Source of the DNA: Paracoccaceae bacterium
GTDB lineage: Bacteria; Pseudomonadota; Alphaproteobacteria; Rhodobacterales; Rhodobacteraceae
Reading direction: 5' to 3'
Assembly (NCBI GenBank): GCA_014879735.1
Contig: JACSRN010000186.1
Location: 1-50,918, forward strand
DNA length: 50,918 nucleotides
Under the pieces are notes generated by a model. It saw nothing but the letters and a program-made list of their open reading frames with translations, made no database searches and was not told the origin of the DNA. A program made the position numbers and the translations under genes. Shown here one piece after another: positions 14,330-49,990 of this stretch. Each line of letters starts with the position of its first letter. Position 1 is the stretch's first letter.

Positions 14330-14345
14330 CTGTCGTTTCAGGGGA

Positions 14346-15110: not shown

Positions 15111-15111
15111 C

Positions 15112-15840: not shown

Positions 15841-15854
15841 CGGCGTTTCTCCTG

Positions 15855-29404: not shown

Positions 29405-31846
29405 ATGCAAACCCATGCAAGGGCAGTGGTGATCGGCGGCGGCTGTGTTGGTGCGGGCATTCTCTATGGCCTGGCCAAGCGCGGCTGGACCGATGTCGTG
29501 CTGCTGGAGCGGACCCAGTTGACCGCAGGCTCGACCTGGCATGCCGCGGGGCTGATTCCGACCTATGCGCGTTCGCGCAACGTCGGCCGGATGATCCAGA
29601 AGACCATCGAGATCTACGAGGGGCTGGAGGCCGAGACCGGCCAGCATGTCGGCTGGCACAAATGCGGCCAGCTTCGCATCGCCAATACCAAGGACCGGCT
29701 GGACGAATACAAGAGCTACATGAGCGTGGTCGGGAGCCAGGGCATCCGTGCCGAGCTGGTCGGCCCGGCCGAGGTGCGCAAGCTCTGGCCGCTGCTGGAA
29801 AACAACACGGATATGCTGGCCGCGCTCTACCACCCCGATGACGGCCATATCGCGCCTGCCGACGTGACCATGGCCATGGCCAAGGGCGCGCGCGACCTGG
29901 GCGCGAAGATCGAGCTCAACACCGAGGTGAAGGGCTTCCAGCGGCTGCCCTCGGGCGAATGGAAGATCCTGACCAACAAGGGCGAGATCATCTGCGAACA
30001 TGTGATCTGCGCCACCGGCAATTACGCCCGCCAGACCGGCGCCCTGCTGGGGCTGGAGATCCCGGCGATCCCGATCATCCACCAGTACTGGATCACCGAT
30101 GCGGTGCCGGAAATCGTGGAGCGCAAGCGCCAGGGCCTGCCGGAAATGCCGATCCTGCGCGACGAAGGGTACGAGGGCTATCTGCGCGAGGAAGGCGACG
30201 GGCTGATGTTCGGCCCCTATGAGCGCACCGAACACCTGAAGCTTTTCGCCGAGAACGGCGTGCCGGACTGGTTCGGTGCCGATCTGCTGGAAGAGGATTT
30301 CGACGCGGTGTCCTGGAATTGGGAACAGGCGCTGCATCTGGTCCCTGCGCTGTCGCGCGCCGGAATCAAGTCGAACGTGCGCGGGCCGTTCCAGATGACG
30401 CCGGACGAATTGCCGCTGATGGGCCCGGCCTGGGGGCTGGAAAACGTCTGGCTGGCCGAGGGCGTGCCGGGGGGCATCCTGTGGGGCGGCGCCATCGGCT
30501 ATTACCTGTCCGAGCGGATCGTCGAGGGCGGCAACAGCCTCGATACTTCGGAACTCGATCCGCGCCGCTTCGGCAGCTATGCCAACAAGGAATGGACCCG
30601 CCACAAGGTGCTGGAGGCCTGGGGCACCCATGCCGAACTGCATTTCCCCGACGAGGAGCGGCCCGCCGCGCGGCCGCAGAAGACCGCACCATCCTATGAT
30701 ATGCTGAATGCGCGGGGTGCGGTCTGGGGGGTGCTGAACGGCTGGGAAATGCCCAACTGGTATGCACCGCCGGGTGTCGAGGCCAGCGACCAATCGTCCT
30801 GGCGCTGGACCGACAACGGCAAGTATATCGGCCAGGAGGTTGCGGCCGTGCGCAATGCCGTGGGCCTTGTCGAAATGACCCCGATGACCAAGTTCGAGGT
30901 CTCCGGCCCGGGCGCCGAGGCCTGGCTCGACTGGGTGCTGGCCAACCGCCTGCCGAAAACCGGCCGCGCCAACCTCAGCCACCACCTGACGCCGCAGGGC
31001 GGTGTGCAGGCGGAATATGTCGTCGCCCGGCTGGCGGAGGACAGTTTCTACCTGATCTCGACCCCGCGCGCCGAACGCTGGAACTTCGACGATCTGTCCA
31101 AGTTGCTGCCGCGCGACGGCTCGGTCGACCTGCGCAATGTCTCGGAAGCGCGCGGCTGCTTCACGCTGGTCGGCCCCCGGGCGCGCGACGTGCTGCAGGG
31201 CCTGACCGAAACCGATCTGTCGAATGCAGCGTTTCCGCCCTTCGCGGTGCGGACCGGCACTGTTGCGCTGGCCTCGGATGTGCGGATGCTCCGGGTGAAC
31301 TACGAGGGCGAACTCGGCTGGGAACTCTACCATCCCCTCCCGTACCAGCGGGGTCTGCTGCAGGCGATTCTGGCAGCGGGAGAGGCGCATGGCCTGCGGC
31401 TGATCGGCAATCGCGCGCTGGAAAGCCTGCGGCTGGAGAAATCCTATCGCGCGATGTATCGCGACATGAATCCCGAACTCAGCGCCTGGGACAGCGGGCT
31501 TGATCGCTTCATGCGGCTGGAGAAAGGCGATTTCATCGGCCGCGACGCGCTGGTGCGGCTGAAGGAGGCCGGCATCGCGCGCCGCTCCGTCACGCTGGCG
31601 ATCGAGACCGATGGCGCAAGTTCGCTGATCTACGAGGGGGTCTATCACCGGGGCGAACTGGTCGGGCGGATCACCTCGGGCGGCTACAGCTGGACGCTGG
31701 GCCATGACCTGGCCCTGGCGCTTTTGCCGGTGGAACTGGGGCAGCCGGGAACCGGGCTTGAGGTGTCGATCCTTGGCGAAATGCGCAAGGCCCGGGTGGT
31801 GACGGAATCGCCCTATGACCCGGAAGGCCTGCGGGGCCGGATGTAG
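29405..31846 (+). CDS. FAD-dependent oxidoreductase fused to GcvT domain (dimethylglycine/sarcosine dehydrogenase type)
   Basis: An 813-residue fusion enzyme. The FAD site VIGGGCVGAG lies at 9-18. His46 in TAGSTWHAAGL is at the place of the covalent-FAD histidine of dimethylglycine dehydrogenases. The DAO domain runs to about 400 (YWITDAVPEIVE, PDELPLMGPAWGLENVWLAEG), followed by a FAO_M linker and a C-terminal GcvT/folate domain (VSGPGAEAWLDWVLANRLP, GELGWELY, KGDFIGRDAL, TSGGYSWTLGHDLALALL). It should oxidatively remove an N-methyl group and pass the C1 unit to tetrahydrofolate. The exact substrate is unknown. A related enzyme is encoded at 33774. Confidence 0.9.
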   Translation: MQTHARAVVIGGGCVGAGILYGLAKRGWTDVVLLERTQLTAGSTWHAAGLIPTYARSRNVGRMIQKTIEIYEGLEAETGQHVGWHKCGQLRIANTKDRLDEYKSYMSVVGSQGIRAELVGPAEVRKLWPLLENNTDMLAALYHPDDGHIAPADVTMAMAKGARDLGAKIELNTEVKGFQRLPSGEWKILTNKGEIICEHVICATGNYARQTGALLGLEIPAIPIIHQYWITDAVPEIVERKRQGLPEMPILRDEGYEGYLREEGDGLMFGPYERTEHLKLFAENGVPDWFGADLLEEDFDAVSWNWEQALHLVPALSRAGIKSNVRGPFQMTPDELPLMGPAWGLENVWLAEGVPGGILWGGAIGYYLSERIVEGGNSLDTSELDPRRFGSYANKEWTRHKVLEAWGTHAELHFPDEERPAARPQKTAPSYDMLNARGAVWGVLNGWEMPNWYAPPGVEASDQSSWRWTDNGKYIGQEVAAVRNAVGLVEMTPMTKFEVSGPGAEAWLDWVLANRLPKTGRANLSHHLTPQGGVQAEYVVARLAEDSFYLISTPRAERWNFDDLSKLLPRDGSVDLRNVSEARGCFTLVGPRARDVLQGLTETDLSNAAFPPFAVRTGTVALASDVRMLRVNYEGELGWELYHPLPYQRGLLQAILAAGEAHGLRLIGNRALESLRLEKSYRAMYRDMNPELSAWDSGLDRFMRLEKGDFIGRDALVRLKEAGIARRSVTLAIETDGASSLIYEGVYHRGELVGRITSGGYSWTLGHDLALALLPVELGQPGTGLEVSILGEMRKARVVTESPYDPEGLRGRM

Positions 31847-31921: not shown

Positions 31922-33475
31922 TCAATCCATCGGCTGTGCGCCGCCCGCGGCGGTCTTTGCCTCGATGAGCGGGATCAGGCGGTCGGCACGTTCGGCCGCC
32001 CCTTCCGGTGGAACAAAGTCGCGCAGGATGGACCGCCAGACATCGGTCGCGCGCATGTCCGAGGTCCGGGCGCCGGCTTCGGTCCAACTGCCGAAATTGT
32101 TCAGATCGGCCACGAGCGGCGCGTAGAATTCCGTCTGGTAGCGCTCCATCGTATGCCGGGTCTGAAAGAAATGCCCGCCCGGCGAGACCTCGGCAATGGC
32201 ATCAAAGCCGATTTCGGCCGGCGTACCCGAGGGCCGCGAGCACAGCTCGGCATATATCTGCAGCCCTTCGATGTCGTTGATGAATTTCTCATAGCCAAAG
32301 GTCAGCCCGCCCTCCAGCCACCCCGCGGTGTGGACGATCAGCGTGCCATGGGCCAGCGAGGCGCCCCAAAGGCCCATGGTGGTTTCCAGCGCGGCCTGCA
32401 TGTCCGGCGCATTGGAGGCGGATCCCGAGGCGGTGCGCCAGGGCAGGCCGATGTGGCGGGCAAGCTGGCCGCCGCCGATCTGCATCTTGAGATGCTCGGG
32501 CGTGCCAAAGGCAGGCGCGCCGCTTTTCATATAGGCGTTGGAGGAGAAGCCGCCATAGCTGACCGGCGCGCCGGCCCGGGCAACCTGGGTCAGGGCAATC
32601 GCGGCCAGTGCCTCGGCATGCTGCAGGGCCAGCGCCCCGGCCGGCGTGATCGGCGCCATGGCCCCGGCAAGACAGAAGGGCGTGACGATGGACATCTGAC
32701 CCGCGCGGGCAAAATCGATCAGGCCCCTGGCCATGGGGTTGTCCAGAAGCCTGGGGGAATTGGTGTTGATGATCGTGGTCAGCCAGACATCCTGCGCAAA
32801 CTCGGCGTCCGAAAGGCCAAGTGCCGTCTGCACCATCTCGAACCCGTCCTGAACCTGGGCCGGGCCGCGGGAAAAAAGGAACAGGGGCTTGTCGGAATTT
32901 TCAAGCTGGGTGCGGATGGTGGCATAGTGGCGCAAATGTACGGGTATGTCCTGCGGTTCCACGGTGGGGCCCTGGACATGGATCACGTCGAAGGCCTGGC
33001 AGAGCTGCGTGGTTTCGACATAGTCGCGAAGGGAGCCGGGGCGGCGGCCCCTGTCCCGGTCATTGGCATTGGGGCAACCCACCCCGGCCATGAAGATCAT
33101 TGATCCCTGGGCATAATCCTGGTCCCGGCGCGGGTTTGGCGCCCGAAGCCGCCATGACCCCGGTGCGGAGGCAAGGGCGGCGGCGATGATGTCGCGCCCG
33201 ATGAGGACCATGTCCTCCTGGACCCGGGCCCCCGCGGCGGCGAAAAGGTCGCGTGCCTCGGGCAGCAGGATGCGCATGCCCAACCGTTCCAGAACCGTCA
33301 GGGCGGTGTCATGGATCGCGGCCACCTCGTCTTCCGAGAAGACGGTCTGCGCAGGGAAAGGGTGGCGAAGCTGGCGGTAATCGGGCTGGCGCAGTATCTT
33401 GGCCGTGCCATCGCGGCCCCGGCGGCGCGCGCGGGCGGGGGATGCTGCCGGTGTCTCGGACAATTGTGACTCCAT
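31922..33475 (-). CDS. Trimethylamine methyltransferase (MttB) family protein, non-pyrrolysine
   Basis: A roughly 517-residue member of the MttB superfamily: FPAQTVFSEDEVAAIHDTALTVLERLGMRI at the N-terminus, the barrel segments STVTPF-like MSIVTPFCLAGAMAPITPAGALALQHAEALA and SDAP-like SNAPDMQAALETTMG, and the late FETAAEVSPGGHF-like region (AIAEVSPGGHFFQTRHT). No in-frame amber codon is present, so it is not the pyrrolysine enzyme; non-Pyl homologues include glycine-betaine, proline-betaine and carnitine methyltransferases. No corrinoid protein or methyl acceptor gene is nearby. Start chosen at 33475 with GATGAGG upstream; 33490 is an alternative. Located downstream of the FAD/GcvT gene after about 300 nt. 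Confidence 0.85.
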   Translation of the reverse strand: MESQLSETPAASPARARRRGRDGTAKILRQPDYRQLRHPFPAQTVFSEDEVAAIHDTALTVLERLGMRILLPEARDLFAAAGARVQEDMVLIGRDIIAAALASAPGSWRLRAPNPRRDQDYAQGSMIFMAGVGCPNANDRDRGRRPGSLRDYVETTQLCQAFDVIHVQGPTVEPQDIPVHLRHYATIRTQLENSDKPLFLFSRGPAQVQDGFEMVQTALGLSDAEFAQDVWLTTIINTNSPRLLDNPMARGLIDFARAGQMSIVTPFCLAGAMAPITPAGALALQHAEALAAIALTQVARAGAPVSYGGFSSNAYMKSGAPAFGTPEHLKMQIGGGQLARHIGLPWRTASGSASNAPDMQAALETTMGLWGASLAHGTLIVHTAGWLEGGLTFGYEKFINDIEGLQIYAELCSRPSGTPAEIGFDAIAEVSPGGHFFQTRHTMERYQTEFYAPLVADLNNFGSWTEAGARTSDMRATDVWRSILRDFVPPEGAAERADRLIPLIEAKTAAGGAQPMD

Positions 33476-33773: not shown

Positions 33774-36185
33774 TCAGCCGCGGAACGCCCGGCCCTTCGG
33801 GTCGTAGGGCGAGGGCGGGATGACGGTCGCCGCCACTTCCTGGCCGACGATATGGGTGCTGAGCCGGGTGCCCGGCGCGGCGACGGCGCGGTCCACCATC
33901 GCCATGGCAAGGCTCTTGCCCAGGGTGTGGCCATAGCCGCCGGAGGTGACGAAGCCGACGAGGGCGCCATCCTGCCAGACGGGTTCGAAACCGGCCGCAT
34001 CGGCATCGGTCGCGGCGACCTCCAGCGTCACGATGACCCGGGCCGGCGGGGCGTAGCGTTCCGTCTCTGCCGCGGCGCGGCCGATGAAATCGCCCTTGTC
34101 CCAGGCGATGAAGCGGTTCATCCCGGTTTCGCCCGGCGTGTAGCCTTGGGTGAATTCCCGTGACCAGATGCCGAAGCTCTTTTCCAGCCGCAGCGACAGC
34201 ACCGCGTTGAAGCCGATCTCGCGCATGCCAAAGCCGGCGCCTGCCTCCAGCAGCAGCCTGCGCAGCGCGGCATGTTCCAAGGCCCCGCAATTGATCTCGT
34301 AGCCGAGTTCCCCCGTCACCGACATGCGCGCGACCTTCGCGCGGATCAGGCCGAGGTCGAGGGTCGTGCATCCCATGAAGGGCAGGGCGGCATTGGACAG
34401 GTCCTGATGCGTCAGCTTCTGCAGGATCGCGCGCGCATTCGGGCCGACCACGGCAAAGCCGCCGGTGGCATCCGAGATGTCACGCAATGTGGCACCGTCG
34501 AGGGCGTGATCCTCGAACCAGCGCATGTGCCATTGCCGCAGGTAATAGGACCCCATGATCCAGAAGGTGCCATCGCCCCAGTTCAGGATCGTCAGGTCGC
34601 CCTTCAGCCTGCCGTTTTCGCCCAGCATCGGCGCAAGGCCGGCTCGGCCGGGTTGCGGCAGCCGGCAGGCGAAGGTGCGGTCCAGCCATTCGGCGGCCTT
34701 CGGGCCGCTGACCTCATAGCGCGAGAAGGCGGTGATATCGAGCAGCCCGGCGCTTTCCCGCGCGGCGCGGCATTCCGCCCCGATCAGCCCGAAGGCGTTG
34801 GAACGTTTCAGCGAGGGGTTCTCGACAAAATCCTCGGGCGCGAAATAGAGCGGCTGTTCCAGCCCCCAGCCCGCGCCCCAGCGGCAGCCCGCCGCCGTCA
34901 TCCCCTCATAGGCGCCCGGCGCCTTCAGCACCCGGCCTGCGGGAAGCTGTTCGTTCGGATAGCTCATCACGAAGCGGCGCGAATAGAACTGGCCGGTGGT
35001 CTGGCGGATATATTCGCGGTTGGAGGCAAAGTCGCCGTAGCGCGCGATGTCCATGCCGAAGATGTCGGCCTCCGGCTCGCCTTCGATCATCCATTCGGCC
35101 AGCGACTTGCCGACGCCGCCGCCCTGCAGGAAGCCTGCCATCACCCCGCAGGCCACCCAGTAATTGCGCAGGCCGCGGACCGGGCCGACCAGCGGGTTGC
35201 CGTCGGGCGAGAAGGTGAATGCGCCGTTCACCCAACGCTTGATCCCGGTGGTGTTCAGGCAGGGAAAGCGGCGGAAGCCCAGTGAAAGTTCGTTCTCGAT
35301 GCGGCCGAGGTCCTCCTGGATCAGCTCGATCCCGAAGTCCCAGGGCGCGCCCTCCATATGCCAGTGCTTGAAGTCGCGTTCGTAGATCCCCAGCAGCAGG
35401 CCCTTCTGTTCCTGCCGCGTGTAGGTAAAGCCCTCAAGGTCGACGATGAGCGGGATCTCCCCCTGCATCTCGACCAGTTCGGGGATCGCTTCGGTGACGA
35501 GGTAGTGGTGTTCCATCGGCGAGACCGGCAGGTCGATCCCGGCCATCCGGCCAACCTGCTTGGCCCAGAGGCCGCCCGCATTCACCACATGTTCGGCGAT
35601 GATCCTGCCCTTGTCGGTGATCACCTCCCAGCAGCCATCGGGGCGGGGCCGCAGATCCTCGACCCTGGTGTGTTCCAGGATGTCGGCGCCGCGGTTCCTG
35701 GCGGCGCGGGCATAGGCATGGACCACGGCCGAGGGGTCGATATGGCCCTCGCGGTCGCTCCACATGCCGCCGATGATGCCCTCGGTCGAGATGATCGGGC
35801 AGCGGCGCTTGATCTCCTCGGGGCCGATGAGTTCGACATCGTTGATGCCCAGCGACTGGAAGGTGCGGTAGGACGATTGCAGCCATTCCCAGCGGCTGGG
35901 CGCGGAGGCGATCGAGATGCCGCCGGTCATGTGCATCCCGATGTTGATGCCGGATTCCCGGCCCACCTCGGTCAGCAGGTCGATGGTATAGGCCTGCAGC
36001 GCCGCGATGTTGGGGTCGGCGTTCAGGGCATGAAAGCCGCCCGCCGCGTGCCAGCTCGATCCGGCGGTCAGCACCTCGCGTTCCAGCACGGCGATATCGG
36101 TCCAGCCGAATTTCGCCAGATGATAGGCAACCGAGGCACCGACGACGCCGCCGCCGATGATCGCGACGCGGTAGTGATTCTTCAT
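33774..36185 (-). CDS. Second FAD-dependent oxidoreductase/GcvT fusion (dimethylglycine/sarcosine dehydrogenase type)
   Basis: An 803-residue fusion with the same plan as the 29405 enzyme. IIGGGVVGAS (9-18) binds FAD, and His46 in TAGSSWHAAGG occupies the covalent-FAD position. The DAO domain contains GHIDPSAVVHAYARAARNRGA and FTFSPDGNPLVGPVRGLRNYWVACGVMAGF. The C-terminal GcvT part has YEVSGPKAAEWLD, GELGYEINCGA, KGDFIGRAAAE and TSGGYGHTLGKSLAMAMV. Sequence between motifs differs widely, so this is a paralogue with another methylated-amine substrate, not a recent copy. The start at 36185 has a GGGGGAAGCC site; an in-frame ATG lies at 36218. A TetR-type operator is just upstream, suggesting induction together with the divergent binding protein. 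Confidence 0.9.
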   Translation of the reverse strand: MKNHYRVAIIGGGVVGASVAYHLAKFGWTDIAVLEREVLTAGSSWHAAGGFHALNADPNIAALQAYTIDLLTEVGRESGINIGMHMTGGISIASAPSRWEWLQSSYRTFQSLGINDVELIGPEEIKRRCPIISTEGIIGGMWSDREGHIDPSAVVHAYARAARNRGADILEHTRVEDLRPRPDGCWEVITDKGRIIAEHVVNAGGLWAKQVGRMAGIDLPVSPMEHHYLVTEAIPELVEMQGEIPLIVDLEGFTYTRQEQKGLLLGIYERDFKHWHMEGAPWDFGIELIQEDLGRIENELSLGFRRFPCLNTTGIKRWVNGAFTFSPDGNPLVGPVRGLRNYWVACGVMAGFLQGGGVGKSLAEWMIEGEPEADIFGMDIARYGDFASNREYIRQTTGQFYSRRFVMSYPNEQLPAGRVLKAPGAYEGMTAAGCRWGAGWGLEQPLYFAPEDFVENPSLKRSNAFGLIGAECRAARESAGLLDITAFSRYEVSGPKAAEWLDRTFACRLPQPGRAGLAPMLGENGRLKGDLTILNWGDGTFWIMGSYYLRQWHMRWFEDHALDGATLRDISDATGGFAVVGPNARAILQKLTHQDLSNAALPFMGCTTLDLGLIRAKVARMSVTGELGYEINCGALEHAALRRLLLEAGAGFGMREIGFNAVLSLRLEKSFGIWSREFTQGYTPGETGMNRFIAWDKGDFIGRAAAETERYAPPARVIVTLEVAATDADAAGFEPVWQDGALVGFVTSGGYGHTLGKSLAMAMVDRAVAAPGTRLSTHIVGQEVAATVIPPSPYDPKGRAFRG

Positions 36186-36218
36186 GGCTTCCCCCTTTTT
36201 TCCGTCAGGCTGGCACAC

Positions 36219-36236
36219 CGATACATATGTGTCTAG
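36219..36236 (-). promoter_or_regulatory. TetR-type operator copy 1 (CTAGACACATATGTATCG)
   Basis: Read on the minus strand it matches copy 3 at 15 of 18 positions. It lies 34 bp before the FAD/GcvT start codon, where it could repress that gene. Confidence 0.65.
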
Positions 36237-36252: not shown

Positions 36253-36270
36253 CTAGACATATGTGTCAAG
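36253..36270 (+). promoter_or_regulatory. TetR-type operator copy 2 (CTAGACATATGTGTCAAG) with promoter
   Basis: Core GACA-TATG-TGTC with CT and AG at the ends. The TAGACA (36254-36259) can serve as a -35, with TAGGTT (36277-36282) as a weak -10 after 17 nt, for the binding-protein gene at 36307. Together with copy 1 it forms a larger inverted arrangement around CTAGTT...AACTAG. Confidence 0.7.
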
Positions 36271-36306: not shown

Positions 36307-37971
36307 ATGAAATCAGTTGAAACACCTCTTTCCGGGAAAGCCTTGCACCCCGCGGCCGCGGCCTATGCCCGCGAGGTCGGGGCCGGCACCATGTCCCGCC
36401 GCGAGTTCCTGACGCGGGCCACGGCGCTTGGCGTGGCGATCCCCTCGGCCTATGGCCTGATCGGCCTCGCCGCGCCGGCACATGCCCAGGAGGCGCCGCC
36501 GGTTTCTGGCGGCACCTTGCGCATGAACATGGAGATGCGGGCGTTGAAGGATCCCCGCATCTGGGATTGGAACGAGATGGCCAATGTCTGCGGCGGCTGG
36601 CTTGAATATCTGGTGGAATATCAGCGCGACGGGTCGTTGCGGCCGATGCTGCTGGAAAGCTGGGAGGCCAATGCCGATGCAACGCAATGGACGCTGCGGG
36701 TGCGTCCGGGCGTGAAATGGAACAACGGCGAGGATTTCACGGCCGAGGATGTTGCCTATAACATCCGCCGCTGGTGCGACGGCGCGCTTGAGGGCAACTC
36801 GATGTCGACCCGCTTTGATGCGCTGCGCGACGTCGAGGGGACGAACCAGGCGCGCGAGGACGCCATCGTCGTGGTCGATCCGCTGACGGTGCAGCTCAAC
36901 CTCACGGTCCCCGATATCGCAACCGTCGTGAACATGGCCGACTATCCCGCGGTCATGGTGCATCCCAGCTATGACGGCGGCGACCTCATCGCCAATCCGA
37001 TCGGGACCGGGCCGTATCTTCCGGAATTCTTTGCGGTTGGCGACAAGGCCATCCTGGTGCGCAACGCCGACCATGTCTGGTGGGGAACCGAGGTTCTTGG
37101 CGGGCCCTATCTCGACCGGATCGAATATGTCGACTACGGAACCGATCCTGCCGCCGTAATGGCCGCGGCGGGATCGGGAGAGATCGACGCGACATGGCAT
37201 ACCACCGGCGATTTCATCGCCGTCTACGAAGACCTCGGCTGGACGACCACGGACGTGATCACCGCAGGGACAATGGTGGTGCGCTTCAACCAGACCGCGG
37301 CGCCCTATGACAACCGCGATGTCCGCAAGGCCCTTCAGCGGGCGGTCGACAACAATGTGCTTCTCACGCTTGGCTACAATGGGCTGGGCCGGGTGGCCGA
37401 GAACCATCATGCCTGCCCGATTCACCCGGAATACGCGCCCGGCGTGAATGAGGCGCCCGATCCTGCCGGGGCCAAGGCGGCCCTTGATGCGGCCGGGCAT
37501 GGCGACACCGAATTCGAGCTGATCTCCGTCGATGTGGAATGGCAGTCCACCACCTGCGACGCGGTTGCGGCGCAGATGCGCGATGCCGGGATCAAGGTCA
37601 GGCGCACCGTGATCCCAAGCTCCACCTTCTGGAACGACTGGACGAAATACCCGTTTTCGGCCACGGAGTGGAATATGCGCCCGCTGGGCGTCCAGATCTA
37701 CAATCTGGCCTACAAGTCCGGCGTTGCATGGAATGAATCGGGTTTCTCCAACGCCGAATTCGATACATTGCTGGCAGAAGCCAATGCGATTTCCGACGTC
37801 GATGCCCGCCGCGAGGTCATGGCAAAGCTGGAGCGGATCATGCTGGACGAGGGGGTGGTGATCCAGCCCTACTGGCGGTCACTTTTCCGCAGCGCGCGAC
37901 CCGGCGTCCACAATGTGGAACCGCATCCGACGCATCTGCATCAGCACTACCGCTGGTGGATCGAGGCCTGA
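36307..37971 (+). CDS. ABC transporter substrate-binding protein, family 5, Tat-exported, orphan
   Basis: A 554-residue solute-binding protein of the peptide/opine/nickel class. The N-terminus has a twin-arginine motif SRREFLT (30-36) followed by a hydrophobic stretch ending AHAQE, so it is probably exported folded. The body shows LESWEANADATQWTLRVRPGVKWNNGEDFTAEDVAYN and IGTGPYLPEFF. It has no DppB/C/D/F genes beside it. The context of demethylating oxidoreductases and a DddP-like protein suggests a quaternary ammonium or sulfonium ligand, which is inference. The ATG has GGGAGG upstream. The operator at 36253 indicates TetR control. Confidence 0.88.
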   Translation: MKSVETPLSGKALHPAAAAYAREVGAGTMSRREFLTRATALGVAIPSAYGLIGLAAPAHAQEAPPVSGGTLRMNMEMRALKDPRIWDWNEMANVCGGWLEYLVEYQRDGSLRPMLLESWEANADATQWTLRVRPGVKWNNGEDFTAEDVAYNIRRWCDGALEGNSMSTRFDALRDVEGTNQAREDAIVVVDPLTVQLNLTVPDIATVVNMADYPAVMVHPSYDGGDLIANPIGTGPYLPEFFAVGDKAILVRNADHVWWGTEVLGGPYLDRIEYVDYGTDPAAVMAAAGSGEIDATWHTTGDFIAVYEDLGWTTTDVITAGTMVVRFNQTAAPYDNRDVRKALQRAVDNNVLLTLGYNGLGRVAENHHACPIHPEYAPGVNEAPDPAGAKAALDAAGHGDTEFELISVDVEWQSTTCDAVAAQMRDAGIKVRRTVIPSSTFWNDWTKYPFSATEWNMRPLGVQIYNLAYKSGVAWNESGFSNAEFDTLLAEANAISDVDARREVMAKLERIMLDEGVVIQPYWRSLFRSARPGVHNVEPHPTHLHQHYRWWIEA

Positions 37972-38194: not shown

Positions 38195-38881
38195 ATGGCG
38201 CATTTGATATCATCTGCGGCCATGGATACCGCAACCAAACCAAGGACGCCGCCGCTGACCGGGAATGTCAAGGTCACTCGTGACGACTGGTTTGGACTCG
38301 CGCTCAGGACCTTCAAGTCGGATGGCGTGGAGCATGTCCGGGTTCTGAGCCTGAGCCAGAAGCTTGGCGTGTCCCGCGGCAGCTTCTATTGGTATTTCGA
38401 AAGCCGGCAGGCGTTGCTGGACATGCTGCTGGACCACTGGCGCGACACCAACACCCGCTATGTGCTGGAGGGCGCGCGCCGGCCAGCGCCGACGATCACC
38501 CGCGGCGTCCTGAATATCTTCGAAGCCTGGATCGACGACGATCTTTTCGATCCCGAACTCGACTTTGCGGTTCGGGCATGGGCGCGCAGATCGGCGCCGG
38601 TGCATCGCGCGGTGGAAGAGGCCGACATGGCCCGGGTGGACGCCATTCGCGATCTGTTTCTTGCCCATGGATATGAGGCAGAGGATGCCTTCGCCCGGGC
38701 GCGCGTGCTCTATTTCATGCAGATCGGCTATTATGTGCTGGAACTGCACGAGCCGCGCGAGCAGCGGCTGAGCTACGTGCGCGCCTATCTGCGCAGCTTC
38801 ACCGGGAGCGAAGCGTCAGACGAGGAAATCGAAAGCTTTGCCGCATTGGTGCGGGACCGCAAACGGCCCGGGAAACCGTAG
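38195..38881 (+). CDS. TetR-family transcriptional regulator
   Basis: A 228-residue repressor. The helix-turn-helix is in GVEHVRVLSLSQKLGVSRGSFYWYFESRQALLDMLLDHW, the typical TetR N-terminal layout, followed by an all-helical ligand domain (FAVRAWARRSAPVHRAVEEAD, YFMQIGYYVLE). Another in-frame ATG lies at 38222. It sits 223 nt behind the binding-protein gene and before the dddP-like gene. The palindrome CTAGACAyATGTGTC occurs three times in promoters around it, making it the obvious candidate binder. Its ligand is probably the onium compound or a product of it. Confidence 0.9.
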   Translation: MAHLISSAAMDTATKPRTPPLTGNVKVTRDDWFGLALRTFKSDGVEHVRVLSLSQKLGVSRGSFYWYFESRQALLDMLLDHWRDTNTRYVLEGARRPAPTITRGVLNIFEAWIDDDLFDPELDFAVRAWARRSAPVHRAVEEADMARVDAIRDLFLAHGYEAEDAFARARVLYFMQIGYYVLELHEPREQRLSYVRAYLRSFTGSEASDEEIESFAALVRDRKRPGKP

Positions 38882-39277: not shown

Positions 39278-39295
39278 CTAGACACATGTGTCTTG
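39278..39295 (+). promoter_or_regulatory. TetR-type operator copy 3 (CTAGACACATGTGTCTTG) with promoter
   Basis: The best copy: AGACACATGTGTCT is a perfect 14-bp palindrome. TAGACA (39279-39284) can serve as the -35, with TAGCGT (39302-39307) as -10 after 17 nt, the same layout as copy 2. It sits 62 bp before the dddP-like start codon. Confidence 0.75.
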
Positions 39296-39357: not shown

Positions 39358-40632
39358 ATGCAGCAGGCCGCAGATACCGCCGCAAGTCTGGCGCAGGTCT
39401 TCAAGGACGACCGGAAACGCACCTATCTGAACCCCGAAGGCGCGGATCGCCCGTTACGCAGCCCGCTTGGGCCGGAGGTTCTGGACCGTGCGCGCCGCTA
39501 CCGCATCGCGCGGCTGCGCGAGAAACTGCGCGAACACGATTGTGGCGCGATCCTGCTCTACGATCCGGTGAACATCCGCTACGCCTTCGACAGTTCCAAC
39601 CAGGGCGTCTGGACCTCGCACAATGCGTCGCGCTACGCCCTGGTGGTGTCGGAAGGCCCGGGGATCATGTGGGAATTCTCGGGTTGCGAGCATCTGAACC
39701 ATGGCCTGCCCGCGGTGGACGAGATTCGCCCGGCACGAAACTGGACCTATGTCTTCACCGGCGAACACGTTCAGGATCGCGCCGCGCTCTGGGCCGATGA
39801 AATCGTGGATATCCTGCGCGCGCAGGCGCCGAACCTGCGCCTTGCGGTCGACAAGCTTGAACCGCTGGGCACCTTTGCGCTGCAGGCGCGTGGCGTCGAG
39901 ATCGTGGAGGGGCAGGAACTGACCGAGCGCGCCCGCGCGATCAAGAGCGCCGACGAAATCGCATTGATGCGCTGGACCATCCGCGTCTGCGAGGCCGGAA
40001 TGGCGCGGATGTACGAGATTTCGGAACCCGGGCGGATGGAACGCGAAATCTGGGCCGAATTGCACTATGAGAATGCCCGTTCGGGCGGGGAATGGCTGGA
40101 GACCAAGATATTCTCGGCCGGGCCGCGCACGAATCCGTGGTTTCAGGAATGCTCGGACTACATTGTCCAGCGCGGCGACATGATCTCGTTCGATACCGAC
40201 ATGATCGGCCCCTATGGCTATTGCGCCGACCTGTCGCGGTCCTGGACCTGCGGCCATGTGCGGATGACCCCGCAGCAGCGCGGCATCTATGCGGCCGCGC
40301 TCGACCAGATCGGGCATAATCTTGCGCTCATCCGACCGGGGCTGAGCTTTGTCGAGTTCAATGACAAGGCCTGGCGCATTCCCGAGAAATACCGACCCTA
40401 CAGATATCCGGTCTGCATCCATGGCGTCGGCATGGCCGACGAATGGCCGATCGTGCTGCTGCATCCCGACTTCCATCTCAACCATGGCGGCAGTTTCGAA
40501 GCCGGGATGGTGGTCTGCGTGGAAAGCCTGATCGCCGAGGAGGGGTCGGAAAGCATCAAGCTCGAGACGCAGGTGCTGATCACCCAGACCGGCGCGGAAC
40601 GGCTGGACAGCTTCCCCTGGGAGCCGGTCTAG
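39358..40632 (+). CDS. DddP-like M24-fold protein (candidate DMSP lyase)
   Basis: A 424-residue protein of the creatinase/prolidase (M24) fold. It matches the DddP pattern: LLYDPVNIRYAFDSSNQGVW, GGEWLETKIFSAGPRTNPWFQEC, SFDTDMIGPYGYCADLSRSW, IHGVGMADEWP and SIKLETQVLIT. Candidate metal ligands are Asp279, Asp281, Asp291, His355, Glu389 and Glu403, and Asp361 follows His355 by six residues, the spacing of the catalytic Asp377 after His371 in Roseobacter DddP (numbers from memory). DddP cleaves DMSP to dimethyl sulfide and acrylate. The protein may instead hydrolyse another betaine or peptide substrate. Start chosen by GGAGA before 39358; longer frames upstream lack support. The operator at 39278 implies TetR control. 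Confidence 0.72.
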   Translation: MQQAADTAASLAQVFKDDRKRTYLNPEGADRPLRSPLGPEVLDRARRYRIARLREKLREHDCGAILLYDPVNIRYAFDSSNQGVWTSHNASRYALVVSEGPGIMWEFSGCEHLNHGLPAVDEIRPARNWTYVFTGEHVQDRAALWADEIVDILRAQAPNLRLAVDKLEPLGTFALQARGVEIVEGQELTERARAIKSADEIALMRWTIRVCEAGMARMYEISEPGRMEREIWAELHYENARSGGEWLETKIFSAGPRTNPWFQECSDYIVQRGDMISFDTDMIGPYGYCADLSRSWTCGHVRMTPQQRGIYAAALDQIGHNLALIRPGLSFVEFNDKAWRIPEKYRPYRYPVCIHGVGMADEWPIVLLHPDFHLNHGGSFEAGMVVCVESLIAEEGSESIKLETQVLITQTGAERLDSFPWEPV

Positions 40633-41872: not shown

Positions 41873-43246
41873 TCACAGATGCAATGCGCGGCCGAGACCT
41901 TTCAGCGCGGCTTCCTGCACCGTCTCGCCCAGCGTCGGATGGGCATGGATCGTGGCCGCAATATCGGTCAGCGTCGCGGCCATCTCCACCGCCAGCGCAA
42001 ACTGCCCGGCCAGTTCCGACACGCCCGCGCCCACCGCCTGAATTCCCAGAACCAGCCCGGTCCCGCGGTCATGGACGATGCGCACGAAGCCGTCGTCGCG
42101 CCCCCGCGTCATCGCCCGGCCGTTGCCGGCAAAGGGAAAGCTCGTCACTGCCGCCGCCGGCGCCTCGGCCGGCAGCAGGCCGACCGTGACGATCTCGGGG
42201 TCGGTAAAGCACACCGCAGGCATGGCGCGCCGGTCCCAGGCCAGCTTGCGACCGGCAATGACCTCGGCGACCAGATCGCCCTGTGCCATGGCGCGATGCG
42301 CCAGCATCGGATCGCCGGTCACGTCGCCGATGGCATAGACGCCGCGCATCGAGGTGCGGCATTGCGCATCGACCGCGACGAAGGGTCCCGCCATGTCAAG
42401 GCGCAGATCCTCCAGCCCGAAGCCGCCCGTGGCAGGCGCGCGACCGGCAGCGATCAGCACCTTGTCGGCCGGAACCTGCCGTTCGCCATCTGCCAGCGAC
42501 ACGGTCAGCGCCGCATCGGCAAAGCCCCGCGCCCGCGCCCCGGTCAGCAGGCTGACCCCCAGCATCCGCAGCCGTGCGACCACGGGCCTGGTCAGATCGG
42601 CGTCATGATGCGGCAGGATGCGCGGCCCGGCCTCCACCACCGTGACCGCCGCGCCAAGCTTGGCCATGGCCGTGCCGATCTCCAGCCCGATGTAGCCGCC
42701 GCCGACCACGGCCAGGCGCGCCGGCACCGCCGTCAGCGAAAGGGCCTCGGTCGAGGACAGGATGTCGCCGCCAAAGGGCAGGGCGGCGATTGCCTGTGGC
42801 CGCGAGCCGGTCGCGATCACCAGATCCCCGGTCTGGATGCGCAACGGGCCGGCGGCGGTCTCGACCGCGACGGTCTTGCCATCGACGATCCTTGCGGTGC
42901 CGTGGATCACCCGCACCTTTGCCCTGCGCAGCAGCCCGGACACACCCTCTGCCAGCCGGGCGACGATGCCGTCCTTCCATGCGATGGTCCGGCCGAGATC
43001 GATGCCTGGCGCCGCGCAGGTGATGCCAAGGGCATTGGCCCCGGCGAAATGCCGCGCGGCGTGGAATTCGCCGGCGGCATGGATCAGCGCCTTGGAGGGT
43101 ATGCAGCCGACATTCAGGCAGGTGCCACCGGGTGCTGCGGCCTCGACCACGATGGTATCGAGGCCAAGCTGCGCCGCGCGGATCGCGCAGACATAGCCGG
43201 CAGGGCCGGCGCCGATCACCAGAACCTGGCAGGTTTGCGGGGTCAT
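41873..43246 (-). CDS. lpdV: Dihydrolipoyl dehydrogenase (E3) of the branched-chain 2-oxoacid dehydrogenase
   Basis: FAD flavoprotein of 457 residues that re-oxidises the lipoyl group of E2 and reduces NAD. It has VIGAGPAGY (10-18), the redox disulfide Cys43/Cys48 in GGTCLNVGCIPSK, the NAD-binding VVGGGYIGLE and the C-terminal HAHPTLGETVQEA with the catalytic His-Glu. The ATG overlaps the E2 stop (ATGA). The frame reads further upstream, but 43246 is fixed by that overlap and the family start. Confidence 0.93.
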   Translation of the reverse strand: MTPQTCQVLVIGAGPAGYVCAIRAAQLGLDTIVVEAAAPGGTCLNVGCIPSKALIHAAGEFHAARHFAGANALGITCAAPGIDLGRTIAWKDGIVARLAEGVSGLLRRAKVRVIHGTARIVDGKTVAVETAAGPLRIQTGDLVIATGSRPQAIAALPFGGDILSSTEALSLTAVPARLAVVGGGYIGLEIGTAMAKLGAAVTVVEAGPRILPHHDADLTRPVVARLRMLGVSLLTGARARGFADAALTVSLADGERQVPADKVLIAAGRAPATGGFGLEDLRLDMAGPFVAVDAQCRTSMRGVYAIGDVTGDPMLAHRAMAQGDLVAEVIAGRKLAWDRRAMPAVCFTDPEIVTVGLLPAEAPAAAVTSFPFAGNGRAMTRGRDDGFVRIVHDRGTGLVLGIQAVGAGVSELAGQFALAVEMAATLTDIAATIHAHPTLGETVQEAALKGLGRALHL

Positions 43247-44532
43247 GCCTCGGGCGCCATGAAAATCAGCGCGGGGGTTTCCAGAAGCGCCTTGATGCGC
43301 TGGACAAACCGGGCCGCGTCCCAGCCGTCGATCACCCGGTGATCGAAGCTGGCCGAGAGGTTCATCATCCGGCGCGGCACGAACTGGCTGCCGTCCCACA
43401 TCGGGCGCGTGGCGATCCTGTTCAGGCCAAGGATGGCAACCTCGGGATGGTTGATGATCGGGGTGGTGGCGATGGCCCCCAGGGGCCCCAGCGACGAAAC
43501 CGTGAAGGTCGATCCCGCCAGGTCGTCGCGCGTGGCCTTGCCCGAGCGGGCAGCCTCGGCCAGCCGGGAGATTTCGGCCGCGGCGGCAAAGGGACCATAC
43601 CCTTCGGCATGGTGCAGGACCGGCACCATCAGCCCGCCCGCGGTCATGGTGGCAATGCCCAGATGCACTGGCCGATGGCGGGTGACAATGCCCGCCTCAT
43701 CGTCGAAATGCGCGTTCATTTCCGGGTGGTCGACCAGGGCGCGGCACAGCGTGGCGGCGATGAAGGGCAGCAGCGTCAGCTTGGGTTTCTGCCCGCGAGA
43801 GGCGTTGAGCGTGGCGCGCAACTCTTCAAGCGCGGTGACATCGGTCTCCTCGATCACGGTGATATGGGGGATGCGGGCATTGGCCAGCGCCATCTTGTCG
43901 GCAATCCTGCGGCGCAGGCCAAGGATGCGGATCTGTTCGCTGCCCTCGCGCCGGCCGGCGCCCGGGGGCGGGGCCTCCTGCCGCGGCATGGCGAAGACGG
44001 CATCCAGGTCGGCATCCGTGATCCGGCCGGCAGGCCCGCTGCCGCGCACCTGCCGCAGGTCCAGGCCGCCGTCCCGCGCGCGCTTCCTGACCGCGGGCGC
44101 GGCAAGCGGCGCCTGGCCTTCGGGCCGGGGGGCTGCGGCCGCCTGCGCCGCCTGCAAGGCCGCTGGCGGTGCGGCCGGCGCGGATGCCGGCGCCGCGGCG
44201 GGCGCAGGGCTGGGCGCGGGGACTGGGGTGGAGAAGGGGGCGGGCACCTCCTGATCGTCGTGCCTGGCTGGCGCCGCGCCACGGTCTTCGCCGGTCTGCG
44301 CAATCGTCACCAGGACCGCGCCGACGGCCAGCGTCTGCCCGATCTCGCCGCCCAGAGAGACGACGGTGCCGGCAAACAGACTGGGAATTTCGACCGTGGC
44401 CTTGTCGGTCATCACCGCCGCGATGGGATCGTCCTCGCGTACCACGTCGCCGGGTTTCACCAGCCATTCCGCCAGTTCCACTTCGGCCACACCCTCGCCG
44501 ACATCGGGAACCTTCATGTGGCCGATCACCAT
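43243..44532 (-). CDS. bkdB: Branched-chain 2-oxoacid dehydrogenase E2 (dihydrolipoyl acyltransferase)
   Basis: Core E2 of 429 residues that moves the acyl group from E1 to coenzyme A. One lipoyl domain carries Lys44 in DKATVEIPS. A long Ala/Pro-rich linker (about 105-160) is followed by the E1/E3-binding domain (RKRARDGGLDLRQVRGSGPAGRITDADLDAVF) and the catalytic domain with His398-Asp402-Gly403 (FDHRVIDGWD). A single lipoyl domain is usual for BCKDH rather than PDH of proteobacteria. It is 1 nt after the E1-beta gene. Confidence 0.92.
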   Translation of the reverse strand: MVIGHMKVPDVGEGVAEVELAEWLVKPGDVVREDDPIAAVMTDKATVEIPSLFAGTVVSLGGEIGQTLAVGAVLVTIAQTGEDRGAAPARHDDQEVPAPFSTPVPAPSPAPAAAPASAPAAPPAALQAAQAAAAPRPEGQAPLAAPAVRKRARDGGLDLRQVRGSGPAGRITDADLDAVFAMPRQEAPPPGAGRREGSEQIRILGLRRRIADKMALANARIPHITVIEETDVTALEELRATLNASRGQKPKLTLLPFIAATLCRALVDHPEMNAHFDDEAGIVTRHRPVHLGIATMTAGGLMVPVLHHAEGYGPFAAAAEISRLAEAARSGKATRDDLAGSTFTVSSLGPLGAIATTPIINHPEVAILGLNRIATRPMWDGSQFVPRRMMNLSASFDHRVIDGWDAARFVQRIKALLETPALIFMAPEA

Positions 44533-44533
44533 C

Positions 44534-45547
44534 TCAGTCCTCCATGACCTTGCACAATGCGCGGGCGATGCGGGCGGGGCTGGGGAAATAGTCCCATTCC
44601 TGCGCATGCGGATAGGGGGCGTCCCAACCCGCGACACGGATCAGGGGGGCGCGCAGGTGCCAGAAGCAGGCCTCCTGCACCTCTGCGATCAATTCCCCGC
44701 CAAAGCCGCCGGTCCGCGTGGCCTCATGCACCACGACACAGCGCCCGGTCTTCTGGACCGAGGTGCGGATCGTGTCGAGATCCAGCGGCAAGAGGCTGCG
44801 CAGGTCGATGATTTCGGCATCGACCCCCGCCTCTGCCACCGCGGCCTCTGCGACATGGACCATGGTGCCATAGGCCAGCACGGTGACATCCGCCCCCCCG
44901 CGCCGGACTTCGGCCTGACCAAGCGGGATGACATAGTGGCCCTCGGGCACTTCTCCTGCCGGATGGGCCGACCATGGCGTCGACTTGCCGGAATGGTCGC
45001 CGCGGAACGGGCCGTTGTAGATCCGCTTGGGTTCCAGGAAGATGACGGGATCGGGATCCTCGATCGCCGCGATCAGCAACCCCTTGGCATCATGGGGGGT
45101 CGAGGGGATCACGACCTTCAACCCGGCGACATGGGTGAACAGCGCTTCCGGGCTCTGGCTGTGGGTCTGGCCGCCGAAGATTCCGCCTCCGGTCGGCATC
45201 CGCACCACCAGCGGGCAGGTGAATTGCCCGTTCGAGCGATGGCGCAGACGCGCGGCCTCCTGGGTGATCTGGTCGTAGGCCGGAAAGACATAGTCGGCGA
45301 ACTGGATTTCGACGCAGGGCCGCATCCCCTGCGCGGCCATCCCCACCGCCATGCCCACGATCGCGCTTTCGTTGATCGGGGTATCGAACACCCTTTCCTC
45401 GCCATGGCTGGCCTGCAGCCCGGCCGTGCAACGGAAGACCCCGCCGAAATAGCCGACATCCTCGCCGAAGACGATGACGCTGGGGTCGTCGGCCAGCTTT
45501 ACATCCATGGCGCTGCGCAGGGCCTCGATCATGGTCATCCGTGCCAT
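44534..45547 (-). CDS. bkdA2: Branched-chain 2-oxoacid dehydrogenase E1 beta subunit
   Basis: A 337-residue transketolase-like subunit that completes the TPP site. It starts MARMTMIEALRSAMDVKL and contains FGEDVGYFGGVFRCTAGLQ, RVFDTPINESAIVGMAVGMA, QFADYVFPAYDQITQEAARLRHRS and MVHVAEAAVAEAGVDAEIIDLRSLLPLD. Segments are typical of BkdA2/BCKDHB. The start at 45547 is 1 nt from the E1-alpha stop; the upstream frame is not needed. Decarboxylates 2-oxo acids from Val, Leu and Ile together with E1 alpha. Confidence 0.93.
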   Translation of the reverse strand: MARMTMIEALRSAMDVKLADDPSVIVFGEDVGYFGGVFRCTAGLQASHGEERVFDTPINESAIVGMAVGMAAQGMRPCVEIQFADYVFPAYDQITQEAARLRHRSNGQFTCPLVVRMPTGGGIFGGQTHSQSPEALFTHVAGLKVVIPSTPHDAKGLLIAAIEDPDPVIFLEPKRIYNGPFRGDHSGKSTPWSAHPAGEVPEGHYVIPLGQAEVRRGGADVTVLAYGTMVHVAEAAVAEAGVDAEIIDLRSLLPLDLDTIRTSVQKTGRCVVVHEATRTGGFGGELIAEVQEACFWHLRAPLIRVAGWDAPYPHAQEWDYFPSPARIARALCKVMED

Positions 45548-45548
45548 G

Positions 45549-46778
45549 TCAGTACCCCATCTCCTGCCGCTGCCGCCGCAAATGCGGCGGCAGATCGGCG
45601 TAGACCCCGCGAAAGATCTCGGCCGGTGAAATCGGTTTCGGATCGACAAAGGTCCCATGCGCCTCGACCGTCTTCTGGACGGCGATCACCTCGTCGAGGA
45701 TCTCGGCCTCGGCCTGGACATGGCGCGCCTCGGACCATTCGCCGCGGGCGATCAGATGGGCCTTCAGACGCTGGACCGGATCGCCCAGCGGCCAGGCCAG
45801 AGCCTCGTCCTTCGGGCGATAGGCGGTCGGGTCGTCCGATGTCGAATGCGCGGCCGCCCGGTAGGTGAACCATTCGATCAGGACCGGGCCATGGCCCAGC
45901 CGTGCCCGTGCCACGGCCCAGCGCGACACGGCCACCACCGCCAGATAGTCGTTGCCGTCCACGCGCAGCGCCGGAATCCCGTAGCCGAGCGCCCGCGCGG
46001 CATAGGTTTCGCTCTTGCCGACCGCGACCCCGGTATAGGTCGAGATCGCCCATTGGTTGTTCACGACATTCAGCACCACCGGCGGCAGATAGACCGAGGC
46101 CGACAGCAGCGCGCTGTGAAAATCGCCGGATGCGGTTGCGCCATCGCCGATCCAGCCCGCCGCGATCTTGCCGTTTCCGCGCAAGGCGCAGGCCATCGCC
46201 CAACCCACGGCCTGCACATATTGCGTGCCAAGATTGCCCGAGATCGAGAAGAACCCGTAGTCGCGCGCCGAATGCATGATCGGCAACTGGCGGCCTTGCA
46301 ACGGGTCCATTTCGTTCGAATAGAGTTGTCCCATCAAGGCCTCGAGCGGGTAGTCCGCCGCGATCAGCAGCGTCTGCTGGCGATAGGTGGGAAAATTCAT
46401 GTCGCCCTGTTCCAGCTGGCGCTGAAAGCCGCAGCCGATGGCTTCCTCGCCGGTGCATTGCAGATAGAACGAGGTCTTGCCCTGCCGCTGGGCGTTCAGC
46501 ATCCGTCGGTCGACCGCCCGCATCCGCAGCATGTCGCGCAGGCCGAGGCGAAGGTCGTCCCCCGTCAGATCGGCAATGCCGTCGGCCCAGGGACCGACGG
46601 CCCGGCCCGCATCGTCCAGCACGCGGACCAGGCCAACCGCCAGGGCGCGTGCATCCCTGGCCTCCAGGTCCAGGGGGGGAACCGGTAGGCTGCCTGCCGG
46701 CGGGACCACGATGTTGGAGAAGTCCGGCGGCTGGTCGGGCCGGGCGGGCGGATGCGGAAAGGCGAGTTTCGCTGTCAT
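45549..46778 (-). CDS. bkdA1: Branched-chain 2-oxoacid dehydrogenase E1 alpha subunit
   Basis: A 409-residue TPP-dependent dehydrogenase subunit. The TPP motif runs from GDG (211-213, WIGDGATASGDFHSA) to NN (240-241, VVNNQWAIST). The N-terminus (PDFSNIVVPPAGSLPVPPLD) and MLNAQRQGKTSFYLQCTGEEA are BkdA1-type. It overlaps the SDR gene by 4 nt, so expression is coupled to the beta-oxidation-like genes. The complex turns branched-chain 2-oxo acids to acyl-CoA. Confidence 0.93.
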   Translation of the reverse strand: MTAKLAFPHPPARPDQPPDFSNIVVPPAGSLPVPPLDLEARDARALAVGLVRVLDDAGRAVGPWADGIADLTGDDLRLGLRDMLRMRAVDRRMLNAQRQGKTSFYLQCTGEEAIGCGFQRQLEQGDMNFPTYRQQTLLIAADYPLEALMGQLYSNEMDPLQGRQLPIMHSARDYGFFSISGNLGTQYVQAVGWAMACALRGNGKIAAGWIGDGATASGDFHSALLSASVYLPPVVLNVVNNQWAISTYTGVAVGKSETYAARALGYGIPALRVDGNDYLAVVAVSRWAVARARLGHGPVLIEWFTYRAAAHSTSDDPTAYRPKDEALAWPLGDPVQRLKAHLIARGEWSEARHVQAEAEILDEVIAVQKTVEAHGTFVDPKPISPAEIFRGVYADLPPHLRRQRQEMGY

Positions 46779-47542
46779 CTCGGCGGCATCCGGGCGCCGG
46801 CATCAAGGCGGATCACCTCGCCGTTCAGCATCGGATTCTCGACGATATGGCAGGCGAGGGCGGCGAATTCCTCGGGGCGGCCAAGGCGGGCCGGGAACTG
46901 GGCATGCCGGGCCAGCGCCTCCTGCACCTCGGGCACAAAGCCCGAGACCATGGCGGTCTGAAAGATGCCCGGTGCGATGGCCATGACCCGGATACCGATC
47001 CGCGCCAGATCCCGTGCCATCGGCAGCGTCATCCCGGCCACGCCCGCCTTCGATGCTGCATAGGCCGCCTGGCCGATCTGGCCATCCCATGCCGCGATCG
47101 AGGCCGTGTTGATGATCACGCCGCGCTCGGCGTCATCGCCCAGCGGGTCGAGCGTTGCCATGCCTGCCGCCGACTGGCTGGCGACATTGAAGCTGCCGAT
47201 CAGGTTGATTCCGATCACCCGGGCAAAGCCGGCCGGATCATGGGCGCCGCCACGCGACAGCGTCCGCTGCGCGGGCGCGATCCCGGCGCAGTTGATGCAG
47301 ATGCGCTCCTGCCCCTGCGCACCACGCAGCCACGACAGCGCTGCCGCGACCGAGGCAGGGTCCGCCACGTCGCAGCGGGCGAAGGTTCCGCCCAGTTCGG
47401 CCGCCACCGCGCCCCCGGCCGCCTCGTCCATGTCCAGGATGCCCGTCCGTACCTGCTGGCGGGCCAGCGCCTGTGCCACCGCCCGCCCCAACCCCGAAGC
47501 GCCGCCAGTGACCACGGCCGCAGTGTCGCTGCCCAGCTTCAT
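46775..47542 (-). CDS. SDR-type 3-hydroxyacyl-CoA dehydrogenase (HSD10-like)
   Basis: A 255-residue SDR of the type-II 3-hydroxyacyl-CoA dehydrogenase group: VTGGASGLGRAVAQAL (11-26), ILDMDEAAG, NCAG (84-87), Ser148 and Tyr161/Lys165 (YAASK). The FPARLGRPEEFAALACHIVENPMLNGEVIRLDAGARM ending is the HSD10 signature. In isoleucine breakdown this enzyme would oxidise 2-methyl-3-hydroxybutyryl-CoA. It overlaps both neighbours by 4 nt. Confidence 0.9.
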   Translation of the reverse strand: MKLGSDTAAVVTGGASGLGRAVAQALARQQVRTGILDMDEAAGGAVAAELGGTFARCDVADPASVAAALSWLRGAQGQERICINCAGIAPAQRTLSRGGAHDPAGFARVIGINLIGSFNVASQSAAGMATLDPLGDDAERGVIINTASIAAWDGQIGQAAYAASKAGVAGMTLPMARDLARIGIRVMAIAPGIFQTAMVSGFVPEVQEALARHAQFPARLGRPEEFAALACHIVENPMLNGEVIRLDAGARMPPR

Positions 47543-48681: not shown

Positions 48682-48691
48682 CCCGGTCGCC

Positions 48692-49870: not shown

Positions 49871-49990
49871 CGGTACCCCTTCCCCCGCCATCCGGGCTGA
49901 TCCACCCGGCGTTGCGACAGCATAGGCCCGCTCTGCCGCATGATCGTGCTTCTTCTATTGCCATCAGCCGGCATTTGCGCATGACTCAGC

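Follow-up and report, generated by a model that had tools for sequence, protein, structure and literature searches.

A DddP-like protein encoded beside MttB and FAD/GcvT demethylases belongs to a sister clade of the DMSP lyases and may act in nitrogen-betaine catabolism

The DddP-like gene described here lies in a 50,918-nucleotide stretch of contig JACSRN010000186.1 from a Paracoccaceae bacterium (GCA_014879735.1), and this whole stretch is referred to below as the window. The genes and operator-like sites around it are collected in Table 1.

Table 1. Genes and operator-like sites around the DddP-like gene; positions are those of the window.
Feature	Position	Strand	Remarks
Second FAD/GcvT demethylase	29405..31846	+	
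MttB-superfamily methyltransferase	31922..33463	-	PF06253, 569 bits; start chosen by eye
FAD/GcvT demethylase	33774..36185	-	Closest solved relative dimethylglycine dehydrogenase, 530 bits
Operator-like palindrome	36220..36235	.	34 bp before FAD/GcvT start (ATG 36185, minus strand)
Operator-like palindrome	36254..36269	.	37 bp before solute-binding protein start (36307)
ABC transporter solute-binding protein, family 5	36307..37971	+	
TetR-family regulator, candidate owner of the operator	38222..38881	+	Start chosen by eye
Operator-like palindrome	39279..39294	.	63 bp before DddP-like start
DddP-like M24-fold protein P0001, clade A	39358..40632	+	424 aa ORF

The first-pass annotation had placed MttB and FAD/GcvT demethylases next to the DddP-like gene, and profile matches bore this out for one MttB and two FAD/GcvT proteins. 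The MttB has no in-frame stop (pyrrolysine) and is nearer to glycine betaine methyltransferase (2QNE, 261 bits; 9YCE, 260 bits) than to TMA methyltransferase (101 bits), and by its sequence it qualifies as a putative MtgB-type betaine methyltransferase. One MttB together with two FAD/GcvT enzymes would be sufficient for removing the three methyl groups of a trimethylammonium compound. The absence of acrylate-handling genes beside the DddP-like gene, also claimed earlier, held among the 18 window ORFs scanned with Pfam. Genes for a branched-chain keto acid dehydrogenase, an acyl-CoA dehydrogenase and thiolase-like proteins, named by eye from their translations, lie further downstream (41873-49891), and that part of the window has no operator copy.

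The palindrome that had been noticed in the promoters of the DddP-like gene and two neighbours was located in three copies resembling TAGACAYATGTGTCTA (at 36220, 36254 and 39279, with at most 3 mismatches), and no match was found in 100 shuffles. With at most 2 mismatches it occurs at three places in the whole genome (201 contigs, 4.39 Mb), all of them in the window, and a reversed control pattern had no match in the whole genome at the same threshold. The operator thus marks the FAD/GcvT gene, which MttB follows, together with the genes for the solute-binding protein and the DddP-like protein. For FAD/GcvT the start codon at 36185 was chosen by eye, in an ORF with an earlier GTG at 36218. No operator copy was found before the second FAD/GcvT gene. 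The TetR at 38222 would probably be the repressor acting at the three sites. In another locus, L089, relatives of this TetR (44%) adjoin relatives of MttB (58%) and FAD/GcvT (68%). The palindrome was absent from L089 and from L101, a locus described below, within 3 mismatches; in the long loci of relatives it was found nowhere outside the window with at most 2 mismatches, and at 3 mismatches as scattered single matches in L077, L122 and L138. A search for other repeated palindromes was uninformative, since it missed the three sites of the window too.

The closest solved relatives of the DddP-like protein, P0001, are the DMSP lyases RdDddP (4B28) and RlDddP (4RZY and mutants) at about 40% identity, with prolidases far behind. 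Reportedly, the main structural paper on RlDddP is that of Wang et al. 2015. P0001 has an M24 domain (99 bits, Pfam), and a fold search with its AlphaFold model (mean pLDDT 85, pTM 0.86) retrieved 4S01, 4S00, 4RZY and 4B28 first, with TM-scores of 0.83-0.84, followed by prolidases, creatinase and the ectoine hydrolase DoeA. Creatinase is thus not the closest solved relative, the DddPs being far ahead in both sequence and fold. Against the NCBIfam DddP model NF043017, P0001 scored 376.5 bits, below the cut-off of 600, and three further clade A proteins were likewise below it (367, 372 and 411 bits); the score against the DoeA model was 36 bits where the cut-off is 575.

In prolidase and aminopeptidase P the His after the HGxG metal motif has a catalytic role. 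P0001 is without that His and has Asp361 instead, which aligns with the His of Pyrococcus prolidase 1PV9. The earlier statement that all DddP metal-site positions and the catalytic Asp are kept agrees with the alignment, in which D279, D281, D291, H355, E389 and E403 of P0001 correspond to all six DddP ligands D295, D297, D307, H371, E406 and E421, and Y350 and D361 to the catalytic pair Tyr366 and Asp377. The numbering of the ligands and of the catalytic candidates Y366 and D377 follows PMC4108388, which in the relevant passage describes methionine aminopeptidases, related to DddP, as being without D297.

A place in the prolidase or creatinase clades with changed pocket residues, named beforehand as the outcome that would speak against a DddP-like enzyme, did not emerge; P0001 belongs to a sister clade of DddP and keeps the metal and catalytic residues. 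In trees of 80 and 72 rows, which included two characterised enzymes and neither fungal nor gammaproteobacterial DddP, the P0001 group (clade A, 37 rows in each) and the group of characterised DddPs were on separate branches, with SH-aLRT support of 100 for clade A and 99 for DddP in the 80-row tree and 100/100 for each in the 72-row tree, so that P0001 does not group with the characterised DddPs. Between the two clades lie poorly resolved lineages, some with a changed catalytic Tyr or Asp. In L053, L054, L056, L102, L103 and L106 the metal site is intact and the catalytic Tyr and/or Asp is replaced (Q, V; N, V, G). The six metal ligands, Y366 and D377 are all kept in 34 of the 37 clade A rows, the exceptions being L048 (D307N), L052 (C-terminal end diverged) and L076 (cut off before E421). 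Along with the Tyr and Asp, clade A keeps the DddP Trp positions W95, W248, W262, W277 and W312; W115 and W379 are variable in the clade and Trp in P0001. Five positions are aromatic in clade A (Y93, W129, W206, Y288 and W339). In the DddP clade the first is Ala, the second mostly Leu, the third Cys, the fourth mostly Ile and the fifth mostly His (A103, L139, C217, I304 and H355 in RlDddP). All of them except W206 are also aromatic in 12-14 of 15 other non-canonical rows.

DddP over the cut-off is present in 161 of 295 genomes of the same family. A separate group sharing 57-67% identity with P0001 was found in 17 of these 295 genomes, and one sharing 60-65% in 12 of 385 from the class, the genome studied here being included in both counts. 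Within the genus (13 genomes) it is the only one with a clade A protein; the relative found in four others shares 42-44% identity with P0001 and falls in with DddP. Clade A ranges from Rhodobacteraceae to rhizobial plasmids. Broken copies of clade A genes were seen in L079 (10001-11231), L121 (9553-10806) and L202 (8001-9033), and L086 (912-10552) has three DddP homologues within 10 kb, two of the DddP clade and one of clade A with 2OG.

By profile search the host genome contains no DddP or DmdA over the cut-off. It has two YhdH/AcuI-type genes over the cut-off, both on other contigs, MttB in eight places and one B12-binding_2 protein. Among its other M24 matches only one is near P0001, a protein on contig C69 (274 bits, 38-39% identical). 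The gene for it, the second DddP-like gene of the host (L096, G000:C69, 3701-9469), lies about 3 kb from another MttB and has a 4 bp overlap with a fused thioesterase/AMP-ligase/carrier gene.

Gene context was compared on maps made by simple ORF choice with no gene caller. MttB, Stc2/Gbc-type Rieske or 2OG oxygenase was encoded nearby in 28 of 38 clade A loci, in none of 20 canonical DddP loci and in one of 20 arbitrary stretches, where the single match was an MttB. Fisher's p for 28/38 against 0/20 was 1.8e-8, uncorrected for relatedness, and related clade A loci are not independent. The 38 loci are 40 less the duplicates L114 and L118 (of L068 and L074); L079 with its broken gene was left out, and L121 (broken), L077 and L087 (gene at the end) were counted. 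The canonical controls (L131-L150), chosen as 20 from the top 30 DddP hits for which loci were taken, represent the core of the DddP clade, and the positions of the arbitrary stretches (L151-L170) were chosen by the author. Counted by family, MttB was found in 14 of the 38 clade A loci, 2OG oxygenase in 16, Rieske in 1 and each FAD/GcvT query in 11. There is some circularity in the 2OG and Rieske counts, whose queries were themselves drawn from loci of clade A. For MttB and FAD/GcvT the queries came from the window, and one or the other was matched in 15 of the 38 loci (14 of 37 when the window is set aside), compared with none of the 20 canonical ones (p 0.001 for 15/38). A GbcB-like reductase query was matched in 1 of the 20 canonical loci. 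None of the three likely demethylases was found in 10 of the 38 clade A loci; 6 of these 10 are shorter than 17 kb, and in L077 and L087 the DddP-like gene is at the locus end. Among the other non-canonical loci, 10 of 20 had one of the three; this set counts a single Sinorhizobium meliloti locus twice (L187, L188) and includes L101, whose protein is of the DddP clade. The basal DddP-clade protein of L101 (9263-10585) is over the cut-off with 681 bits and its gene stands beside relatives of the window TetR (53%), MttB (54%) and FAD/GcvT (69%) at 12122-16857, which means that the link to demethylases is not exclusive to clade A.

The 2OG cluster comprises 17 loci (Rhodobacteraceae and one gammaproteobacterial MAG), and in 10 of them the 2OG gene and the start of the DddP-like gene share 4 bp, counted from a gap list that includes non-neighbour gene pairs, and an HFD motif, read as a hydroxylase motif, is present in all 17. 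A halogenase was considered for the 2OG partner and rejected, the motif being HxD; that this enzyme demethylates is a guess. In L068, L069, L070, L072 and L115 the DddP-like gene lies between a BHMT-like gene and a corrinoid-protein gene, and the general glycine betaine machinery in some clade A loci could be a mere neighbour. Orthology of LysR regulators as a sign of a common inducer was dropped, those of the rhizobial operon and the 2OG loci being 29-35% alike and no closer than other LysRs. A HAL-like gene without the MIO ASG motif adjoins the 2OG and DddP-like genes in L090 (7773-9254) and L085 (10629-12214); it is split into two ORFs in L085, and the L090 protein is about equally close to ergothionase 6S7J and HAL. 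Ergothioneine was set aside as a substrate, these two loci alone having such a MIO-less HAL/ergothionase-like gene, which is too few.

Relatives of P0001 at E<=1e-60 were found in 177 plasmid records, 151 of them from Rhizobium or Sinorhizobium and 93 at 60-80% identity. The high-identity plasmid relatives among the matches listed are annotated as Xaa-Pro peptidase family, aminopeptidase P family or proline dipeptidase. A Rieske oxygenase gene and a reductase gene lie directly upstream in 10 of the 11 clade A plasmid loci opened, with L204 as the exception; in this sample L202 is a broken copy and L198 has a different Rieske (43% identical). For the rhizobial Rieske protein the nearest entries are 4QUP and 3VCA, of the stachydrine demethylase Stc2 (346 bits), and for the reductase GbcB comes first (322 bits, where the cut-off is 500). 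A gfa relative (formaldehyde) is present in 8 of the 11 loci, fghA was recognised by annotation only, and a 4-hydroxyproline epimerase and a betaine/proline transporter are encoded in 4 (L183, L185, L186 and L199). Rieske and reductase genes are also near the genes for two more distant proteins, one from Caballeronia (47%), which is the sister of clade A in the 72-row tree, and one from Paraburkholderia (51%, outside the tree). Taken across lineages, the Rieske, MttB and 2OG contexts indicate that the DddP-like gene is constant while the candidate demethylase swaps among three unrelated families. In soil rhizobia, genes annotated as DMSP lyase or DMSP lyase family stand beside ETF and NADH:flavin oxidoreductase genes (L184, 17418-22553; L191, 21265-23937), and the two L184 proteins had no NCBIfam match at E<=1e-20.

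Membership of a sister family, together with genes that are often beside relatives of N-betaine demethylases, points to the breakdown of a betaine, probably, rather than of DMSP. The reading favoured here, with some reserve and on grounds of sequence, is that P0001 belongs to a DddP sister clade acting in the catabolism of a quaternary-ammonium carboxylate (nitrogen betaine), to which a lyase with the dinuclear metal site of DddP would have been recruited. The first-pass annotation had proposed a DMSP lyase or else a lyase or hydrolase for another betaine-type compound; the latter part fits the N-betaine demethylase context, and DMSP lyase as the first choice was given up in view of the score below the cut-off, the sister clade and the soil rhizobia.

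According to the text of PMC5395565, the iron of DddP binds the carboxylate of DMSP, Trp and Tyr hold the sulfonium and Asp takes the alpha proton; with five DddP Trp positions, the Tyr and the Asp kept in clade A, the expected chemistry would be elimination from a carboxylate whose beta position bears an onium or another leaving group. The substrate would here be a nitrogen betaine or a compound derived from one by demethylation. In such a pathway the TetR repressor, probably that at 38222, would release the operator in the presence of the betaine or of one of its breakdown products, and the SBP5 protein would help to import the betaine. The DddP-like enzyme would hold the substrate carboxylate on its metals while Asp361 takes the alpha proton and the beta group leaves, by C-N or C-O rather than C-S cleavage. 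MttB and the flavoenzymes would move methyl groups into the folate pool, and a Rieske or 2OG oxygenase would carry out the demethylation instead in other lineages. A wider proposal, possible and on the doubtful side, is that clade A and its non-canonical relatives make up a novel enzyme family, metal-dependent C-N lyases or betaine lyases, splitting an onium amine from a carboxylate. DddP would then be a late branch in which several aromatics were lost on the change to a sulfonium substrate, and its reported millimolar Km for DMSP would be a trace of this origin.

P0001 might also be a true divergent lyase of DMSP (or DMSOP), with the adjoining demethylases serving other osmolytes in one osmolyte island. 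The full retention of the DddP metal and catalytic residues agrees with this, as do the two AcuI-type genes elsewhere in the genome and the L101 protein, which is over the DddP cut-off and accompanied by the same TetR/MttB/FAD-GcvT set. Such a function is nevertheless judged unlikely, since P0001 is under the equivalog cut-off and in the sister clade, the five clade A aromatics are replaced in the DddP clade with four of them common to most non-canonical relatives, the demethylase context is found in 0/20 canonical DddP loci, and relatives are frequent in rhizobia of soil, where they lie next to Rieske and GbcB-like genes and in some cases a hydroxyproline locus.

The M24 fold, whose next solved representatives after the DddPs are prolidases, creatinase and ectoine hydrolase, could also suggest a hydrolase resembling amidases, peptidases or creatinase, which would release a betaine or an N-methyl amino acid from a conjugate ahead of demethylation. 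The neighbouring SBP5 family includes peptide binders and many annotated rhizobial records bear the name Xaa-Pro peptidase, both in keeping with this role. It is improbable, however, given that P0001 has Asp361 at the aligned prolidase His, as DddP does, that DddP is reported to be without Val-Pro activity in the passage concerned of PMC5395565, and that D281 (DddP D297) is kept, a residue which the corresponding passage of PMC4108388 states is not found in methionine aminopeptidases. The 4 bp overlap of the HFD-motif 2OG gene with the DddP-like gene in 10/17 loci and the upstream Rieske and reductase genes in rhizobia are compatible with a different order of steps, in which the oxygenase or methyltransferase first modifies the carbon skeleton or a methyl group and the DddP-like enzyme is a dehydratase, taking water or another beta group off a hydroxylated betaine, and not an onium lyase. 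Loci with MttB alone would be left unexplained by this order, which is considered quite improbable.

For a clade A enzyme of nitrogen-betaine catabolism, two consequences are of interest. Marine DMS production is judged from counts of dddP genes. PMC5395565 names DddP as the DMSP-lyase gene of widest distribution, and a dddP survey applied a rule of at least 40% identity and 70% coverage (PMC10686828); 22 of 40 clade A proteins pass these thresholds against RlDddP or RdDddP, the reference set of that survey being, as far as its text describes it, larger than the two DddPs used here. Because a good part of clade A passes published thresholds, its proteins may be miscounted as DMSP lyases, and dddP counts outside the Roseobacter core (freshwater, sediment, soil) could be inflated. 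Clade A is also a candidate enzyme step in the betaine catabolism of marine bacteria and legume symbionts, for which cultured rhizobia are a ready model. Among the matches listed, the literature search gave no paper that places a DddP-like family in the catabolism of betaines, and within the literature searched the DddP sister clade appears undescribed.

Among known systems, the demethylation of glycine betaine, whether through MtgB and DMGDH or through Rieske enzymes of GbcAB/Stc2 type, resembles the present case in that the neighbours of clade A are related to the enzymes involved. In aerobic marine bacteria the methyl groups of glycine betaine are removed by the MtgBCD corrinoid machinery, and the many MtgB paralogues suggest further methylated substrates, as stated in PMC12478193; unlike clade A loci, the pathway as set out in the relevant sections of that paper has no visible DddP-like step. 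Ectoine hydrolase DoeA/EutD is similar in its M24 fold and its place in osmolyte catabolism, but its model is matched by P0001 far below the cut-off (36 against 575 bits). With M24 prolidases and creatinase P0001 has the fold and the metal-site scaffold in common, whereas it differs in the Asp at the aligned prolidase His, in the extra metal Asp and in an identity of 16-21% in the listed fold alignments. DddP itself (RlDddP 4RZY, RdDddP 4B28; NF043017) is the nearest in fold (TM-score 0.83-0.84), in the six metal ligands, Tyr366 and Asp377 and at about 40% identity, but P0001 is set apart from it by 376 against 600 bits, by its sister clade, by five aromatics and by the link to relatives of N-betaine demethylases.
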